From contig JAJDHV010000002.1 of NCBI GenBank assembly GCA_030266365.1, positions 1-64,000 of the forward strand: DNA of 64,000 bases, read 5' to 3'. Made by a program: the position numbers and the translations under genes. Each line of letters starts with the position of its first letter. The first letter of the stretch is position 1. Below, in pieces: positions 13,180 to 22,553 of this stretch. The notes under the pieces were generated by a model. That model was not told the DNA's origin and did not search any database. It saw nothing but the letters and a program-made list of their open reading frames with translations. The DNA is from Synergistaceae bacterium OttesenSCG-928-I11 (lineage in GTDB: Bacteria > Synergistota > Synergistia > Synergistales > Synergistaceae).

Positions 13180-13245
13180 ATGATTTCGAGCGGGACGACG
13201 GTATCGGTTTTTTCTACGCAGAAGGGTCTTTGGTGGTGGCGCTGA
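13180..13245 (+). CDS. trpL: trp operon leader peptide
   Basis: A 21-residue reading frame beginning Met-Ile-Ser-Ser and ending Lys-Gly-Leu-Trp-Trp-Trp-Arg, stop TGA at 13243-13245. GAGGTG lies about 7 bases before the ATG. The three consecutive TGG codons (13231-13239) overlap the left arm of a hairpin (GGTGGCG 13235-13241 with CGCCGCC 13246-13252). This is the layout of ribosome-mediated attenuation: scarcity of charged tRNA-Trp stalls the ribosome on the Trp codons and prevents the downstream terminator from forming. Confidence 0.92.
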   Translation: MISSGTTVSVFSTQKGLWWWR

Positions 13246-13300
13246 CGCCGCCCCGAGGTCTCGTGTCGTTGTTCTGATTCGAATACAAGCGATCTGACAG

Positions 13301-13346
13301 GAGAGGCTCCGAGGGTGTAAACACACTTGCGGAGCCTCTCTTTTTT
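13301..13346 (+). terminator. trp attenuator terminator
   Basis: Perfect stem GAGAGGCTCCG/CGGAGCCTCTC with TTTTTT at 13341-13346. The upstream segment 13251-13262 (CCCCGAGGTCTC) can pair imperfectly with GAGAGG-CTC-CGAGGG at 13301-13315, giving a candidate antiterminator. Confidence 0.88.
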
Positions 13347-13399: not shown

Positions 13400-13443
13400 A
13401 TGAAAATTTTCCTGGATGAACGACAGAAAAGGAGATGTGTACG

Positions 13444-14490
13444 ATGGAACGGATGGAGAAAATTCTGAACAGGTTGATGTCAGGGGACAATCTCGACAAG
13501 GGGGAGAGCGCTGCGCTCTTCGACGCGGTCATCGCGGGCGAGCTGGGCGATGTGGAGATCGCGGCGGTCCTCGTTGCGCTCAAACTGCGCGGCGAGACGG
13601 CGGAGGAGATCGCGGGGGCGGCCGACGCCCTTCGGCGCGGCGCGCGGGCGTTCGAGCGCCCCGATTACGCCTTTGCGGACATCGTCGGCACTGGGGGCGA
13701 CGGGGCGAACACGATCAACATCTCGAGCGCCGTCACCTTCGTCGCGGCGGAGGCAGGGCTTCCCGTGGCGAAGCACGGCAATCGCTCCGTGTCGTCGAAG
13801 TGCGGCGCGGCGGACCTCTTCGACCGTTTCGGCGTCAAGCTCGACATGGCGCCGGAGACGGCGCGGTGCATGCTCGACGAGCTCGGCGTGACCTTCCTCT
13901 TCGCGCCGCACTACCACACGGGGATCAAGCGTGTGATGCCGGTGCGCAAGGCGCTCGCCACCCGCACGATGTTCAACGTTCTCGGGCCCCTCATCAACCC
14001 GGCGCGGCCGCCGATCATGCTCGTCGGCGTCTACGACTACGCGCTCTGCGACATCGTCGCGGAGACGCTGCGGCTGCTCGGCTGCGAGCGCGCCCTCGTC
14101 GTCAACGGTCTCGGCCTCGACGAGATCGCAGTGCACGGCGAGACGAACACCGCCGAGCTGCGCGACGGCGAGATCGTCCGACGCAACTTCACCACCGCGG
14201 ACTTCGGCGTCCGCGAGTTCCCCCTTTCCTCGATCGTCGGCGGCACGCCGGAGGAGAACGAGCGGGCGATCCGCGCGGTCCTGGAGGGGCGGGGCGACGA
14301 GGCGCACGCGGCAGCCATCGCCGTCAACGCGGCGGCGCTGCTCGTGCTGGGCGGCAAGGCGCGGAACTACCGCGACGGCTTCGACATCGCCATGGGGATC
14401 ATCGAGAGCGGCAGGGCGGCGGAGCTCGTGACGCGGCTCGCCGCGATGTCGCACGCGCCGGACGGGGCGAACTGCCGTGTCAGTGCTTGA
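13444..14490 (+). CDS. trpD: Anthranilate phosphoribosyltransferase
   Basis: Joins anthranilate to PRPP, the second step of tryptophan synthesis. I take ATG 13444, 9 bases after AAAAGGAG; the ATG at 13435 sits too close to it. 348 residues. Signatures: DIVGTGGDGANTINISS (PRPP-binding glycine loop, near 80), AKHGNRSVSSKCGAADLF (anthranilate site), MFNVLGPLINPARP (near 175). First structural gene of the operon: no trpE or trpG precedes it. It overlaps trpCF by 14 bases. Confidence 0.97.
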   Translation: MERMEKILNRLMSGDNLDKGESAALFDAVIAGELGDVEIAAVLVALKLRGETAEEIAGAADALRRGARAFERPDYAFADIVGTGGDGANTINISSAVTFVAAEAGLPVAKHGNRSVSSKCGAADLFDRFGVKLDMAPETARCMLDELGVTFLFAPHYHTGIKRVMPVRKALATRTMFNVLGPLINPARPPIMLVGVYDYALCDIVAETLRLLGCERALVVNGLGLDEIAVHGETNTAELRDGEIVRRNFTTADFGVREFPLSSIVGGTPEENERAIRAVLEGRGDEAHAAAIAVNAAALLVLGGKARNYRDGFDIAMGIIESGRAAELVTRLAAMSHAPDGANCRVSA

Positions 14491-15847
14491 CGAGATCGTC
14501 GCGCGAAAGCGCGCCGACGTGGCCTCTCGCATGGCCCGCGTCTCGCTTGAGTCGCTCAAGTCCCGCGCGGTTCGGACCGGGCGCAGTCTGGAGCGCGCGC
14601 TCAAAAAACCCGGCGCGCGCTTCATCCTCGAGTGCAAGAAGGCCTCGCCCTCCGAGGGTTTGATCCGGAAAAAATTCGACGTCGCGGAGATCGCGCGCGC
14701 GTACGAGAATTTCGCCGACGCCGTCTCCGTTTTGGCGGACGAGCCGTACTTCCAGGGGAGCCTCGAAAATATCGCCGTCGCGCGCGGATGCCTCGATGCG
14801 CCGATCCTGTGCAAGGACTTCGTCGTCGGCCCCTATCAGGTCTACGAGGCGCGCGCCTACGGCGCGGACGCCGTTCTGCTGATGCTCTCCGTCCTCGACG
14901 ACGAGACCTACCGCCGCTGCGCGGAGGCGGCAGCCGCGCTCGGCATGGACGCGCTGACCGAGGTACACGACGAAACCGAGCTCTCCCGCGCGCTCGACCT
15001 GGGCGCGCGGATCGTGGGGGTCAACAACCGCGACCTCCGGACGCTGAAGGTCGACCTCGATACGACGCGGAAACTGGCGAAAAAAATTCCAGACGACCGC
15101 GTCGTCGTCTGCGAGTCCGGCATCCGCTCGCACGCAGACGTCGAAGCCCTGCGCGACCACACGGGCGCCTTCCTCGTCGGCGGCACGCTGATGAAAGCCC
15201 CCCGGCTCGACCTCGCCGTGCGCGAGCTCGTCTTCGGCCGCGTCAAGATCTGCGGCCTCCGCTCGCCGGACGACGCGCGATGCGCCTACGAGTCGGGCGC
15301 GACCTTCGGCGGTCTCATCTTCGCCGACGCCTCGCCGCGCCGCGTCGACGAAGCGTGTGCACAGGAAATCGCCGCCGCCGCACCCCTCCGGACGGTCGGC
15401 GTCTTCGTGAACGACGACCCGCAGCGAATCGCTCATCTCGTGCGCACGTTAGGTCTCGAAGCCGTCCAACTGCACGGTGACGAAAGCGAAACCGAGGTCG
15501 CAAATCTCAAAAAAATTCTCCCGGCGTCGTGCGAGGTCTGGAAGGCAGTCCGCATCGCGGACGGCATCCCGCATCTCTCGGATACCGCCGACCGCGTCCT
15601 GCTCGACACCTATGACACGGCGGTACGCGGTGGAACAGGGCGGTGTTTCGACTGGTCGCTCCTTGAACGCGACCTTGGAAAAGCCGAAAAAAATCGCGTC
15701 GTCCTCGCCGGCGGCATCGCCCCGGACAACGTCCGCGAAGCCGTTGCCCTCGGTTGCCACGCCGTCGACGTCAACTCCGGCGTCGAATGCGCGCCGGGCA
15801 AAAAAGACCCGGCAAAAATAAAAGCCCTCTTCGAGGCAATTCGATGA
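14477..15847 (+). CDS. trpCF: Bifunctional indole-3-glycerol-phosphate synthase / phosphoribosylanthranilate isomerase
   Basis: GTG start overlapping trpD. The TrpC half (1 to about 252) shows FILECKKASPSEG (catalytic Lys), VLADEPYFQGS, PILCKDFVV, VGVNNRDL and VVVCESGI. The TrpF half (about 254-456) starts VKICGLRSPDDARCAYESGA, with catalytic Cys in KICG, GLIFADASPRRV, LEAVQLHGDE and the final VDVNSGVE. 456 residues, like the E. coli fusion. A 178-bp palindromic element fills the gap between this gene and trpB. Confidence 0.97.
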   Translation: MSVLDEIVARKRADVASRMARVSLESLKSRAVRTGRSLERALKKPGARFILECKKASPSEGLIRKKFDVAEIARAYENFADAVSVLADEPYFQGSLENIAVARGCLDAPILCKDFVVGPYQVYEARAYGADAVLLMLSVLDDETYRRCAEAAAALGMDALTEVHDETELSRALDLGARIVGVNNRDLRTLKVDLDTTRKLAKKIPDDRVVVCESGIRSHADVEALRDHTGAFLVGGTLMKAPRLDLAVRELVFGRVKICGLRSPDDARCAYESGATFGGLIFADASPRRVDEACAQEIAAAAPLRTVGVFVNDDPQRIAHLVRTLGLEAVQLHGDESETEVANLKKILPASCEVWKAVRIADGIPHLSDTADRVLLDTYDTAVRGGTGRCFDWSLLERDLGKAEKNRVVLAGGIAPDNVREAVALGCHAVDVNSGVECAPGKKDPAKIKALFEAIR

Positions 15848-15853
15848 AAAAAA

Positions 15854-16031
15854 CAGCGATTGAAAATCAGGACCGTGGGCTCTGCCCACACCCGGCAGGG
15901 AGCAGTGCCCCCTGCACCCCCAATATTTTTTCTTTGCGCGTACGCGCAAAGAAAAAGTTTGGAGGTCCAGGAGGTACGACCTCCTGGCGGGGTGTGGGGC
16001 AGAGCCCCACGGTCCTGATTTTCAATCGCTG
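15854..16031. repeat. Palindromic dispersed element, copy 1
   Basis: A 178-bp nearly self-complementary block. Its outer arms match over at least 26 bases (CAGCGATTGAAAATCAGGAC at 15854 repeats inverted up to 16031). Next come GTGGGCTCTGCCCAC-type and CCCGGCAGGGAG-type submotifs, and the centre is a perfect palindrome around GCGCGTACGCGC (15936-15947) flanked by TTTTTCTTT/AAAGAAAAA. It is non-coding and sits inside the trp operon. Related copies are at 35796-36002 and 44459-44634. Confidence 0.85.
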
Positions 16032-16057
16032 AATTTTGTACAGGGAGTGTGATTGGT

Positions 16058-17260
16058 ATGGAGATACGACATGGAGCGTTCGGTCGGTTTGGCGGGATGT
16101 TCGTCCCGGAGATTCTGGTGCCGACGTTGGAGCAGTTGGAGCGCGCGTTCGAGGACGCGTCGGCGGACGCGGCCTTTGCGGCGGAGTTGGACGGGTTGCT
16201 GCGGGAGTACGCGGGGCGCGAGACGCCGTTGTATCGCTGCCGCAACCTGACGGAGGGGACGAAGGCGACGATTTTTTTGAAGCGTGAGGACCTGTTGCAC
16301 GGCGGCGCGCACAAGACGAACCAGGTGATCGGGCAGGCGCTGCTGGCGCGGCGGATGGGGAAGACGCGCCTGATCGCTGAGACCGGCGCGGGGCAGCACG
16401 GCGTCGCGACGGCGCTCGCGGGCGCGCTGTTCAAGATGAAGACGCGCGTCTACATGGGGTCGAAGGACATGGCCCGCCAGGCGCCGAACGTGTATCGGAT
16501 GCGGCTGATGGGGACGGAGGTCGTGCCGGTCGAGACGGGGAGTTGCAGCCTGAAGGACGCGATCAACGAGGCGCTGCGCGACTGGTCGGAGAGCTACGAG
16601 AACACGCACTACCTGCTGGGGACCGTCGCCGGGCCGCACCCCTTCCCGACGATCGTGCGCGAGTTCCAGCGCGTCATCGGGCGCGAGGCTAAACGCCAGA
16701 TGATCGAGGCGACGGGCCGCCTGCCGGACTACGCCGTCGCGTGCGTCGGCGGCGGGTCGAACGCGATCGGTCTCTTCGCCGACTTCATCGACGAGCCGGA
16801 CGTGCGCCTCGTCGGCGTGGAGCCCGCGGGGCACGGCCTGCACACGGAGAAGCACGGCGCGACGCTCGAGAAGGGCCGCCCCGGCATTCTGCACGGCAGC
16901 TACAGCTACGTCCTGCAGGACGAGGACGGACAGATCGTCGAGTCGCACTCGGTGTCGGCGGGGCTGGACTACCCCGGCGTCGGCGCGCAGCACTCGCACC
17001 TGATGGAGACGGGGCGCGCGGAGTACGTCGGTATCACCGACGACGAGGCGCTTGCCGCCTTCGGCCTGCTTTCGCGGACGGAGGGCATCATCCCCGCGCT
17101 CGAGTCTGCGCACGCCCTCGCCCACGCGCTCAAGATCGCGCGCGACGCGACGCGCGAGACCGTGATCCTCGTGAACCTCTCGGGGCGCGGCGACAAGGAC
17201 ATCGAGCAGACGATGCCCTACACCAAGCTGGAGGTGAACGAATATGACCGCAAGATATAA
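16058..17260 (+). CDS. trpB: Tryptophan synthase beta chain
   Basis: PLP enzyme that condenses indole with serine. ATG 16058 is chosen, 10 bases after GGGAG; the GTG at 16049 is too close to it. 400 residues. Signatures: [17 protein letters not shown], the PLP lysine in [19 protein letters not shown] (near residue 85), [12 protein letters not shown], the phosphate loop [10 protein letters not shown] (near 230), and [14 protein letters not shown]. This is the TrpB1 type that partners TrpA. It overlaps trpA by 17 bases. Confidence 0.98.
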
Positions 17261-18053
17261 AAGGATGTTCGACGCTTTGAAGCAGGAGGGGAGAGGCGCG
17301 TTCATTCCCTTCGTCATGCTCGGCGACCCCGACATGGCGGAGAGCCTCGCCATCCTGAAGACGCTCGCCGCGAGCGGCGCGGACGCGCTGGAGCTCGGCA
17401 TCCCCTTCTCCGACCCGATCGCGGACGGCCCGACGATCCAGACCGCCGCCAACCGCGCGCTTGCGTCCGGCGCGACGCCGACGAAGTGCCTCGATCTGGT
17501 CGCCGCGTTCCGAAAGGAATACCCCGACCTCCCGATCGGCCTGCTCGTCTACGCGAACCTCGTCATCGGGCGCGGCATCGACGCGTTCTACGAGCACGCG
17601 GCGAAGTGCGGGGTCGACTCCGTCCTCGTCGCGGACGCCCCCACCGCGGAATCCGGCGATTTTCTCGCGGGCGCGCGTAAGCATGGCGTCGCCCCCGTCT
17701 ACATCGTCCCGCCGAACGCGGACGAAGCGGCGATGAAAAAAATTTCCGAGATCTGCGAGGGCTACACCTACCTCCTGGGCCGCGCGGGCGTCACCGGCGC
17801 GGAGTCTGAGATGAACGCGCCGCTCGACGCCCGCGTGAAATACCTGGGCGAACAGGGCGCGCCGCCCGTCGTCGTCGGCTTCGGCATCTCCAGGCCGAAC
17901 CACGTCGCCACCGCCATCCGCGCAGGCGCGGGCGGCGCGATCTCGGGATCGGCCACCGTCAGGATCGTCGAAAAAAATCTCGGCGACCGAAAGAAAATGC
18001 ACCGGGAGCTTGCGGCCTTCGTCCAAAACATGTTGGCCGCGACGAAAGCGTAG
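17244..18053 (+). CDS. trpA: Tryptophan synthase alpha chain
   Basis: Cleaves indole-3-glycerol phosphate to indole and glyceraldehyde 3-phosphate, passing indole to TrpB. 269 residues. [11 protein letters not shown] at 20-30, [18 protein letters not shown] (catalytic Glu and Asp near 50-60), [12 protein letters not shown] near 180, and [12 protein letters not shown] near 210. Last gene of the trp operon. Confidence 0.98.
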
Positions 18054-18746: not shown

Positions 18747-19391
18747 TTACAGCCCCTTCTGCTCCGGCAGGTCGAAGCCGATGCCGAGGAAGTGGGCGTC
18801 GCCCATGAGGCTGATTCTGGCGGGCTGCCCAACGCGTAACTCGGCCACGGTCAGGCTGCAATTGGCGATCTGGAAGCGCCAGAAGCTCGAGAGCGGCGCG
18901 TCGAGAAAGTGGCAGAGCAACACTTTGATCACGGCGTCGTGCGACGCGACGAGGACGTCGCCGTCGTAGCGCGCGGAGATCTCATCCACGGCCTTGACCG
19001 CGCGGAGCTGGACGCTGCGCAGGGACTCGCCGCCGTCGCCGGGCATGATCACCGTGTGCGGCGACGTGTGCCAGAGGTCGATGATCCGCGGCCACTTCGC
19101 GCGGACTTCGTTTGCGAGCAACCCCTCCCAGTCGCCGTGGTTGATCTCGGTCAGCGCCTCCGTCGTCTCGAACGCCTCGCATCCCGCCGCTGCTGCGATC
19201 TTCTCCGCCGTCACGCGCGCGCGCTTCAAGGGGCTCGATACGACGGCGTCGAATTTGTGCCCGCGCAGAAAATCCGCGACCTTGTCCGCCTGCGAGAGGC
19301 CGTACTCCGTCAGGTCTGTGTCCTGCTGTCCCTGGAAGCGCCCTTCGCGGTTCCAGTCCGTCTCGCCGTGCCGTACGATAAACAGTCTCAT
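18747..19391 (-). CDS. Histidine phosphatase, likely phosphoserine phosphatase
   Basis: 214 residues of the phosphoglycerate-mutase-like histidine phosphatase family. Catalytic RHG in FIVRHGETDWN (residues 4-14), second Arg in SSPLKRARVTAE, acid Glu in EINHGDWEG, and second His in VASHDAVIKVLL. The ATG overlaps the serA stop by 4 bases. With SerA and a class V aminotransferase upstream, the missing step for serine synthesis is phosphoserine hydrolysis. Metal-independent phosphoserine phosphatases of this family are known (Hydrogenobacter PspA type), so this role is inferred from context. A cobalamin-pathway phosphatase (CobC) is the main alternative. Confidence 0.85.
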   Translation of the reverse strand: MRLFIVRHGETDWNREGRFQGQQDTDLTEYGLSQADKVADFLRGHKFDAVVSSPLKRARVTAEKIAAAAGCEAFETTEALTEINHGDWEGLLANEVRAKWPRIIDLWHTSPHTVIMPGDGGESLRSVQLRAVKAVDEISARYDGDVLVASHDAVIKVLLCHFLDAPLSSFWRFQIANCSLTVAELRVGQPARISLMGDAHFLGIGFDLPEQKGL

Positions 19392-21064
19392 TCTTTCGTC
19401 TCCCCGTTCAGTTTTACCGTCGTCGCCCAGATCATGTCGACGTCGTGCTCCAGCGTCGACATCAGCTCGTCCGACACCGTGCCGTCGATCTCCATCACCG
19501 CCAGCGCGAGCCCGCTCGTGTCCTTGCGGCCGAGGTTGAAGTTCGCGATGTTCACGTTGTTGTCGCCGAGCAACTTTCCGATCTTGCCGATGACGCCGGG
19601 GCGGTCGTGGTTCTGGAAGATCAGCATCTGCCCGTGGGGGACGAAGTCGACCCAGTAGTCGTTCATCTTGACGATGTGCTGCCGCCCCTCCTCGGTGATC
19701 GTGCCGGTCAGGGTCGCCGTCGCGTTCTGCGCCTCGATCGCGACGTCGATGACGTTGCGGTACGTGCGCGGCTCGCCGGTCGTCTCCTCGACCTCGATGC
19801 CCCGCTCGGCTGCCAGGATCGGCGCGATCATGTAGTTCGCGTCCGGGCCGTGCGTGACCTCGAGGAAGCCCTTGAGGGCCGCGACCGTGTAGGGGCGCAG
19901 TTTGTTGCCGGGGGTGTCGTCGTCGCAGAGGAAGGGGCCGCGCAGCGTGACCTTGCACTTGACCGCGGGGCCGCCGTCGTTTTCGATCAGCTTGGCGGCG
20001 AGGATGCCCATCTTGCGGGCGAGGCGGAGGAAATTTTTTTGCTTGTAGTTCAGGTGCTGCTCCATGAAGGGGAGGTTGACCGCGTGGTCGTACTCCTCGC
20101 CGCGGAGGGCGGAGAGGGCGTTCGAGACCGCGATCTTCGCGACCTCACCCTGCGCCTCGACGGTGTTCGCGCCGATGTGGGGGGTGAGGACGATCTTGTC
20201 TGTGAGGTCGTCCGCGAGCAGCGGGTGGTCCGCCGAGGGGGGCTCCTGCGTGAAGACGTCGAACGCTGCGCCCGCGAGTCGCCCGTCGCGCAGCGCCTGC
20301 GCGCAGGCCGCCTCGTCGACGATGCCGCCGCGCGCGCAGTTGACGAGGTATGCGCCGTGTTTGATCGCCCGCAGGGCTTTTTCGTTAATCATCCCGTGCG
20401 TCTCCTTCGTGATCGGCACGTGGACCGTGACGACGTCGGCGAGGGAGAGGCTGCCCATGAGGTCGGTGACCCGCTGCACGCCGAGCTCCTGCATTTTTTT
20501 CTCCGACACGTATGGGTCGTAAGCCATGACCTCCATGCCGAAGGCGCGGCACCTGGAGGCGACGCCCGAACCGATGCGGCCGAGGCCGATGACGAGCAAT
20601 TTTTTGCCGCTCATCTGCCTGCCGGTGAAGCGCTTGCGGTCCCATTCGCCCATCTTGAGCGAGGCGTGCGCGTAGGGTGTGAGACGTATGACGGAGAGCA
20701 TGAGGGCCATCGTCTGTTCGGTTGCGGCGAGCGTGTTGCCGGTCGGGGCGTTGATGACGATGATGCCCCGCTTGCTCGCCTCCTGAAGGTCGACGTTGTC
20801 GACGCCGACCCCCGCGCGTGCGATGACGCGGAGGTTCGTCCCCGCCTCGATCGCCGTCTTGTCCATCGGTGTGCCGCTCCGCGTGACGATGGCGTCGTAT
20901 GCCGGCAGAATTTTGAGCAGTTCGTCGCGCGCGACGCCGATCTTGACGTCGAGCTGCACGTCCCCGGCGTCTTGAAGAATCTGGAGGCCGTCGTCGCCGA
21001 GGTGTTCGGTCACCAGGAATCTGAATTTTTTGTCCGTTTTTTGCCCGCTTCTTTCGTTCACCAT
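19388..21064 (-). CDS. serA: D-3-phosphoglycerate dehydrogenase
   Basis: First enzyme of serine synthesis, oxidising 3-phosphoglycerate with NAD. 558 residues, the long form. Substrate/NAD domains show VIARAGVGVDNVDL, NTLAATEQTMALML, the Rossmann motif IGLGRIGSGVASR, NCARGGIVDE and LTPHIGANTVEAQ. The intervening ASB domain follows (NLPFMEQH ... VTHGPDANYM). The C-terminal ACT domain (about 480-558: LIFQNHDRPGVIGKIGKLLG, VNIANFNLGR) is where serine feedback would bind. ATG 21064 lies two bases from the upstream gene's stop. Confidence 0.97.
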   Translation of the reverse strand: MVNERSGQKTDKKFRFLVTEHLGDDGLQILQDAGDVQLDVKIGVARDELLKILPAYDAIVTRSGTPMDKTAIEAGTNLRVIARAGVGVDNVDLQEASKRGIIVINAPTGNTLAATEQTMALMLSVIRLTPYAHASLKMGEWDRKRFTGRQMSGKKLLVIGLGRIGSGVASRCRAFGMEVMAYDPYVSEKKMQELGVQRVTDLMGSLSLADVVTVHVPITKETHGMINEKALRAIKHGAYLVNCARGGIVDEAACAQALRDGRLAGAAFDVFTQEPPSADHPLLADDLTDKIVLTPHIGANTVEAQGEVAKIAVSNALSALRGEEYDHAVNLPFMEQHLNYKQKNFLRLARKMGILAAKLIENDGGPAVKCKVTLRGPFLCDDDTPGNKLRPYTVAALKGFLEVTHGPDANYMIAPILAAERGIEVEETTGEPRTYRNVIDVAIEAQNATATLTGTITEEGRQHIVKMNDYWVDFVPHGQMLIFQNHDRPGVIGKIGKLLGDNNVNIANFNLGRKDTSGLALAVMEIDGTVSDELMSTLEHDVDMIWATTVKLNGETKE

Positions 21065-21065
21065 C

Positions 21066-22217
21066 TCACTTGCCCTCCCAGATGTCGAATGCCGCTTTCA
21101 TAAAGTCCCCGCTCTCGTTTCTCCGCTCTCCCATCGCTGCGAACAGGCTGCCCAGGATCGTCGCGATCTCCGGCCACCGGACGTCGTGGTAGTGGGCGAG
21201 CCGGAGAATTTTTCCCTTGAGCGCGCCCTGTCCGCCCGCGGGCTCGATTCCCATGGCGCGCAGGTTTTTCGCCACCCCTCCGATGCCGCCGCCCGGCAGC
21301 GAGAAGGCGGTCACACCGGGGGAGCGATACGCCGCGTCCCGGACGAGCAGTTCGAAACCGAGCGCTTCGAGCCCGGAGGCGATGGACCGCGCGGCGCGCT
21401 GCCGCAGGTCGAACCACTCCGGCTCCGCCAAGATCGCGTCCAGTGCCGCGTCGAGCGCGTAATAGAGCGAGACGGGGGGCGTGTAGGGGTTTTCGTGCGC
21501 GTCCGGTTTCATATATTTTTTTTGCAGCGCGAGGTCGAAGTAGTACGACGACGCGCCGTGCGTTTCGACGTGCTCCCAGCCGCGCGCGGAAAGCCAGACG
21601 AGGCCGAGGCCCGGGGGCGTCAGGAGGCCCTTCTGCGACGCCGTCGCAAGGCCGTCGACGCTCCACTCCTGCGGATGGCAGGGCATCGCGCCGACGGCGC
21701 TGACCCCGTCGACCAGCACGAACGGGCGGTTTTCTCCCTTTTTTTCATTTTTATCGGGCAGCGCCGCGACGATTTCGGCGATCGGGTTCAGGACGCCGGT
21801 CGAAGTCTCGTTCTGCGTCAGGAGGAGGACGTCGCAGGGGAATTTTTTCACCGCGTCCGCGACAATGGCGGGGGCGACGCCCGATCCCTGTTCGACGTCG
21901 ACGTTCGTCATCTCCGCGCCCGTGCGCGCGACGATCTCGCGGAAGCGGTCGCCGAAGACGCCGCACGAGACGGAGAGGACCTTCGTCCCCGGCCGCGCGA
22001 AGTTCGCGGCGAGGCACTCGAGCGCCCCCGTGCCCGACGAGGGGAGCAGGACGACGGGTCCCGTCGAGCGGAGAAGCCGCTCCAGCTTCTTCTCGATCGC
22101 ACCGAACAGTGCGTGGAAGTCCGCGCCCCTGTGCGAGATCATCGGACGGGCCATCGCAAGCGACGCATCCACGTCCACCGGAACGGGTCCGGGTGTCAAA
22201 AGATATCGGTTCATCAC
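21066..22217 (-). CDS. Class V aminotransferase (phosphoserine / serine-glyoxylate aminotransferase-like)
   Basis: PLP enzyme, 383 residues. N-terminal LTPGPVPVD and MISHRG, SSGTGALECLAAN near 62, ETSTGVLNP near 136, VDGVSAVGAMP (PLP Asp) and ATASQKGLLTPPGLGLV, whose Lys binds PLP. These match the alanine/serine-glyoxylate aminotransferase branch. Being first in an operon with serA and a phosphatase argues that it makes phosphoserine from 3-phosphohydroxypyruvate in place of a classical SerC. That is inference; family members also use serine or alanine with glyoxylate. GGAGGCGTTGTG precedes the ATG. Confidence 0.9.
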   Translation of the reverse strand: MMNRYLLTPGPVPVDVDASLAMARPMISHRGADFHALFGAIEKKLERLLRSTGPVVLLPSSGTGALECLAANFARPGTKVLSVSCGVFGDRFREIVARTGAEMTNVDVEQGSGVAPAIVADAVKKFPCDVLLLTQNETSTGVLNPIAEIVAALPDKNEKKGENRPFVLVDGVSAVGAMPCHPQEWSVDGLATASQKGLLTPPGLGLVWLSARGWEHVETHGASSYYFDLALQKKYMKPDAHENPYTPPVSLYYALDAALDAILAEPEWFDLRQRAARSIASGLEALGFELLVRDAAYRSPGVTAFSLPGGGIGGVAKNLRAMGIEPAGGQGALKGKILRLAHYHDVRWPEIATILGSLFAAMGERRNESGDFMKAAFDIWEGK

Positions 22218-22239: not shown

Positions 22240-22283
22240 AAAATGAAAAAAATAAAGGGAGCCGACCTCTCGTGTCGGCTCCC
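22240..22283 (-). terminator. Serine operon attenuator terminator
   Basis: On the minus strand GGGAGCCGAC-acgagag-GTCGGCTCCC followed by TTTATTTTTTT. Perfect 10-bp stem, 40 bases before the aminotransferase start. The left arm GGGAGCC can instead pair with GGTCTCCC at 22370-22363, a candidate antiterminator. Confidence 0.88.
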
Positions 22284-22331
22284 GTCTCTTATGCTCGAAT
22301 CGATGTTCTGTGTCGAGTGGGAAGGTTACGG

Positions 22332-22466
22332 CTACGAAACGCGGGGTACCTTCCTCCGAGGCGGGAGACCGATCATACGCCATTTGGCTCCGGACGTGGA
22401 TCCGGAGCGCATGGAGGAGGAACATCCTATGCCGTTGCCGTAGGCGGTGCAGATAACGGTGATCAT
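22332..22466 (-). CDS. Candidate serine leader peptide
   Basis: A 44-codon frame starting ATG at 22466, 3 bases after an AGGGGAAGGG site, stop TAG at 22334-22332. Codons 16-18 are TCC-TCC-TCC and codons 21, 23 and 25 are also TCC, so six serine codons fall within ten. The last three overlap a hairpin GCTCCGGA/TCCGGAGC (22408-22387). It lies between a consensus promoter and a terminator upstream of three serine-synthesis genes, exactly as trpL does for trp. I infer attenuation by charged tRNA-Ser. Confidence 0.75.
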   Translation of the reverse strand: MITVICTAYGNGIGCSSSMRSGSTSGAKWRMIGLPPRRKVPRVS

Positions 22467-22524
22467 AAAGCCCTTCCCCTCTCATACGGCGGATCGTCCG
22501 CGCTCGATTTGCAGAACATGTTCA

Positions 22525-22553
22525 CTTATATCATTTTCGCTTTTATATGTCAA
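22525..22553 (-). promoter_or_regulatory. Serine operon promoter
   Basis: Minus strand TTGACA (22553-22548), 17-base spacer, TATAAG (22530-22525). Transcription would begin near 22518, about 50 bases ahead of the leader-peptide ATG. Confidence 0.88.

Follow-up and report, generated by a model that had tools for sequence, protein, structure and literature searches.

Attenuation through leader peptides is established for several amino acids other than serine. The trp, his, thr, ilv, leu and phe attenuators share a promoter, a short frame in which codons for the amino acid made by the operon stand in a run, an antiterminator strand behind this codon run, an intrinsic terminator and a biosynthetic operon. 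The element described here, which lies on the minus strand of the window (the whole 64,000-nucleotide stretch analysed), is built alike. It differs from all of these kinds in its amino acid, serine, in its phylum, Synergistota, in the lack of a match to any family model and in its preference for UCN over AGY codons. A case of the known kind lies in the same window:

13180-13245, plus strand: Trp leader peptide MISSGTTVSVFSTQKGLWWWR, with a WWW run
about 13299-13346, plus strand: strong trp terminator, before the trp genes (13435 to 18053)

Judged by these parts, 13180-13346 is a textbook trp attenuator, sharing its architecture and genome with the Ser attenuator and differing in its Trp codons and trp operon; the attenuation mechanism thus appears to be at home in this genome.

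Published systems come close to a serine attenuator from several sides. Leader-peptide attenuation has been described for His (PMC9413887), and a comparative study of Actinobacteria reported only Trp, Cys and Leu/branched-chain elements (PMC1262725). In B. subtilis sinR, UCN codons respond to serine limitation and AGY codons less so, but these codons lie within a structural gene that has neither a leader peptide nor an attenuator (PMC3862929), whereas the Synergistota loci have a dedicated leader and terminator. The serC RNA element of Alphaproteobacteria (RF00517, PMC1273637) is likewise a regulatory RNA before serC-serA operons, but it consists of a pair of hairpins located at the ribosome site of serC and no leader peptide is described for it; its family model had no match in the window leader or in 13 relatives. 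The T-box covariance models likewise had no match at the gathering score in the window or these 13 relatives. Serine is absent from the main text of a structured-RNA scan of Thermovirga lienii, a member of Synergistota (PMC6429828). The earlier note on this DNA had known of no described serine case, and we found no serine leader peptide or attenuator in the searchable literature, outside which lie the supplement of PMC6429828 and a broad 2010 survey (PubMed 20198868), while no family in Rfam, Pfam or NCBIfam describes one. Our analysis supports serine as a new amino-acid class within a known mechanism, conserved in most of Synergistales, with its novelty judged within the searchable literature.

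The leader locus occupies 22553-22246 of the minus strand, where a near-consensus promoter, a 44-codon frame, a hairpin and a terminator can be read directly from the sequence (the source assembly is 56% complete). The features of the leader and of the operon behind it are:

22525..22553, minus strand: promoter, read from sequence, with -35 box TTGACA (22553-22548), a 17-nt spacer and -10 box TATAAG (22530-22525)
22332..22466, minus strand: leader peptide frame of 44 codons, from ATG at 22466 to TAG at 22332, supported by sequence and relatives
22392..22421, minus strand: candidate regulatory Ser codons, TCC at codons 16-18 (22421-22413), 21, 23 and 25
22387..22408, minus strand: 8-bp hairpin, GCTCCGGA (22408-22401) with TCCGGAGC (22394-22387), over codons 20-26
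22358..22371, minus strand: putative antiterminator 5' strand, in codons 32-37 of the leader frame, from duplex, folding and co-variation
22276..22288, minus strand: putative antiterminator 3' strand, overlapping the terminator 5' arm, from duplex, folding and co-variation
22246..22283, minus strand: intrinsic terminator, a 10-bp stem of GGGAGCCGAC (22283-22274) and GTCGGCTCCC (22266-22257)
21066..22217, minus strand: class V aminotransferase, first gene of the operon (NCBIfam matches below cut-offs, PhnW/BhcA/SerC superfamily)
19388..21064, minus strand: serA, phosphoglycerate dehydrogenase (TIGR01327, 580 bits against a cut-off of 454)
18747..19388, minus strand: histidine-phosphatase family gene, third in the operon (best NCBIfam match NF045917 PspA, 151 bits against a cut-off of 350)

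From their families and context, the aminotransferase, which adjoins serA in most relatives, is presumed to be a phosphoserine aminotransferase and the third gene a phosphoserine phosphatase. In two relatives (L019 in G028 and L020 in G013), a TAA stop codon is counted inside the aminotransferase match.

Transcription is expected from the promoter sequence to start near 22518, and a purine-rich ribosome site, GAGAGGGGAAGGG, lies at 22483-22471 of the minus strand. The frame translates as MITVICTAYGNGIGCSSSMRSGSTSGAKWRMIGLPPRRKVPRVS and holds a further Ser codon, TCG, at codon 44. The 8-bp hairpin over the last three TCC codons is a candidate protector or pause hairpin, and hairpins resembling it over Ser codons are visible by eye in several relatives and groups. 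Downstream, 22371-22358 can pair with 22288-22276 over 12 bp (CGG-U-CUCCCG-C-CUC with GAG-A-CGGGAG-CCG), and the terminator stem, predicted at -22.2 kcal/mol, is followed by TTTATTTTTTT, with its T tract at 22256-22246. The entire leader folds better than shuffled sequences (z = -3.2). That note had described most of these parts, and its 44-codon frame with ribosome site and six TCC codons, its hairpin over the last three of them and its 10-bp terminator are all present as it said. Its consensus promoter holds for TTGACA and the 17-nt spacer, although the -10 box departs from a perfect TATAAT and the promoter is near-consensus; its second segment, at 22370-22363, is present but belongs to the longer antiterminator strand at 22371-22358. 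The Ser run taken in isolation is suggestive only, since dinucleotide-shuffled versions of the upstream region contain a frame with 6 Ser in 12 codons about 2% of the time (P = 0.023); conservation carries the case.

We searched for the aminotransferase first in 61 genomes and later in 188 from the phylum, reading the upstream DNA in the orientation of the gene. A short frame with a run of Ser codons, usually followed by a terminator, is found in most Synergistales members that have the aminotransferase gene, and such frames stand before the orthologous operon, or before serA where serA comes first, in nine Synergistales families (f1, f2, f3, f5, f6, f7, f8, f9 and f10 in the family codes of the tool). 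The peptides include MRRSAYLVYTGISSSSLCSGVSSSCGGSGCLCRSRNVYPMNREDH (L013), MNCKTISKSVSSSSLSSGLSSCGWSSPRRRSQSE (L021), VNPTCDLSLAGFGSSRSRFSMGSSSSSIGGGCWPVPLRP (L024) and MNFVCLFGILGTGSSSSSSSGWSGRAGLPVPAGKAPQP (L157), and leaders such as MNCKTISKSVSSSSLSSGLSSCGWSSPRRRSQSE and MNFVCLFGILGTGSSSSSSSGWSG... have terminators behind them. Among 71 upstream regions, a count that includes four outgroup genomes and two truncated regions, Ser was the most over-dense of the 20 amino acids in 46, and its density exceeded that of shuffles at P < 0.05 in 44. When regions before control genes in the same taxonomic family were put through this Ser-density test, only 2 of 28 before serS, 2 of 28 before trpB and 1 of 26 before glyA were significant, which is not above chance for any of the three genes. 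Moreover, most genomes examined that have no full-length serA behind the aminotransferase have a Ser leader directly before serA (L288-L293 and L296-L300).

We found no Ser leaders in f11, the other readable order of the phylum, and only chance levels before distant relatives of the aminotransferase outside Synergistota (Chloroflexota, Bacillota and others). Within Synergistales, five genomes have the aminotransferase with no Ser leader (G003, G004, G023, G138 and G150), and four have only serA, also with no Ser leader (G001, G006, G014 and G024). A Ser leader is missing from the operons at L015 and L017 (both in genus g5), L136, L139 and L145, and the region upstream of the gene at L139 holds a short-repeat array (GGCCTCTTATTTA...).

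Across most of Synergistales, the Ser-codon runs, the alternative stem and the terminator are conserved in position despite diverged DNA. The earlier note had proposed orthologous serA operons as the place to check its reading, and the Ser codons and alternative stems are indeed kept there across most of the order; the state that it thought would speak against that reading, a terminator kept with no Ser codons, occurs in a single genome (L017 in G023, genus g5), in what looks like a local loss. Single-base codon differences within groups, counted in peptide-guided alignments, fall at the third position 929 times, compared to 464 and 417 at the other positions. This roughly twofold excess backs translation of the leader frame, as supportive rather than conclusive evidence.

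The serine codons in the leaders are themselves biased. UCN codons make up 229 of 262 Ser codons in leaders (87%), compared to 527 of 698 (75%) in aminotransferases of the same genomes (P = 4e-5) and 194 of 337 (58%) in serS. The regulatory codons in the window are all TCC, and charged tRNA-Ser(GGA) had been put forward in the earlier note as the sensed species; this idea finds no support beyond the window, as other genera use TCT, TCG and TCA runs, and the common denominator is thus the UCN codon box. The preference fits observations in B. subtilis, in which serine limitation makes ribosomes pause at UCN codons more than at AGY codons (PMC3862929).

We examined pairing between the strand after the Ser run and the terminator 5' arm in the set of leaders. 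In 54 leaders, shuffling the upstream strand weakened the duplex (combined P = 4e-16, which is too small because related sequences are not independent; 19 of 54 were individually below 0.05). In a swap test between genomes, cognate strands beat foreign strands (P = 5e-5; 47 leaders), as they did within the group of 15 leaders to which the window belongs (P = 0.001). Within groups I, II and IV, in which the strands hardly vary, this test gave no signal of co-variation, and in some group IV genomes no specific antiterminator was resolved. Sixteen pairs in group III can be read, for instance CCTCAG/CTGAGG in G036 compared to CCTCG/CGAG in others. For the window alone, the duplex is not distinguished from shuffles (P = 0.22), and the cognate strand ranks 16th of 47 in the swap test; the structural case rests on the set of leaders. 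Folding predictions point the same way: with a ribosome placed in the Ser run and the 3' arm not yet made, the mean pairing of the terminator 5' arm was 0.70, compared to 0.61 when the upstream RNA was shuffled (P = 3e-5). Moving the ribosome to the stop codon gave a mean of 0.43, although the contrast with 0.70 comes partly from the shorter free RNA. An antiterminator predicted to exclude the terminator is weak for the window alone and clear for the set. The sequences themselves show these parts, the conservation of their order and an antiterminator that co-varies. The earlier note had envisaged four alternating pairings, but the core switch is between the terminator and one antiterminator; the 1:2 hairpin, a putative protector, is clear in some genera.

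The element in the window is very probably a ribosome-mediated transcription attenuator of the trp/his type with serine regulatory codons, judging from its sequence and that of its relatives. The central proposal of the earlier note, a serine leader-peptide attenuator before a serine biosynthesis operon, is thereby supported by the Ser density, the terminators and the co-variation in relatives. We infer that the leader is translated, that ribosomes stall on it and that the response runs in the following direction. If charged tRNA-Ser were scarce, the ribosome would stall in the Ser run, leaving 22371-22358 free to pair with 22288-22276 once the latter was transcribed; with the terminator 5' arm thus occupied, RNA polymerase would continue into the aminotransferase-serA-phosphatase genes. 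If serine were plentiful, the ribosome would proceed towards the stop codon and cover or displace the antiterminator strand, and the terminator would form.

We considered that the Ser codons might act through translation or Rho rather than an intrinsic terminator, such that a stalled ribosome would uncover or mask either a Rho site or the ribosome site of the aminotransferase. For Cys leader peptides of Actinobacteria, Rho-type variants have been proposed (PMC1262725), and a few leaders had no terminator in our automatic scan. The same scan, however, found a strong intrinsic terminator between the frame and the first gene after most leaders; in G046, which the scan missed, a hairpin is visible (GGGCCGGAGG...CCTCCGGCCC), and the antiterminator pairing targets the terminator 5' arm. 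We therefore regard this mode of action as very unlikely. Cys, considered as a second amino acid that the leaders might sense, occurs in them at only 1.23 times expectation.

It is even harder to credit a riboswitch in the leader RNA, whether a T-box or another element that binds tRNA or a metabolite, with the Ser-rich frame present only incidentally. In favour of one, the terminator has an alternative stem, and GGTACCCCGCG in the window bears a faint resemblance to a T-box motif, but this GGTACC stretch is not conserved in relatives, and in-frame Ser runs recur in nine families with no conserved RNA core. Nor did Rfam yield a T-box or any other fitting family, either in the window leader with hits as weak as E = 10 listed or at the gathering score in the window and 13 relatives. 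Likewise scarcely credible is a Ser-rich peptide that is itself the functional product, placed before serA for reasons unrelated to attenuation: some groups do keep motifs (GxG before the Ser run; SGWSGRAGLP; CGGSGCxCRSRNV), but the peptides are unlike between groups outside the Ser run, match no Pfam or NCBIfam family, are followed in most cases by a terminator and its pairing partner, and have conserved stretches that partly coincide with the pairing RNA strands.

Returning to the serine attenuator, we are evenly divided on a fuller account, in which the class would probably be ancestral to Synergistales, would read the charging of UCN-decoding tRNA-Ser in particular, would follow whichever serine-pathway gene is first and, in one genus, would apparently act from a nearly leaderless leader mRNA. 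As an attenuator, the element would make serine one of the few amino acids sensed through leader peptides, and attenuation long-standing in Synergistota, a phylum with little known RNA regulation. Dozens of natural variants of one attenuator are available for study, the Ser leader could serve as a serine-responsive genetic part, and these loci make it possible to test outside Bacillus whether it is UCN rather than AGY codons that report a shortage of serine.

The leaders also vary in ways that touch on their expression and composition. A TTGAC element lies about 58-70 nt before the leader start in most relatives, compared to 38-39 nt in genus g17, in which the leader ATG follows the -10 box by only about 9 nt (L006, L007, L120, L126, L129, L132, L134, L138 and L141). 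Given this spacing, the Ser leader frame of genus g17 is probably read from a leaderless or nearly leaderless mRNA. Gly occurs in the leaders at 1.69 times expectation, an excess that may be structural, and in several families Gly-x-Gly precedes the Ser run (groups III and IV, for example L002, L003, L148, L151 and L157).
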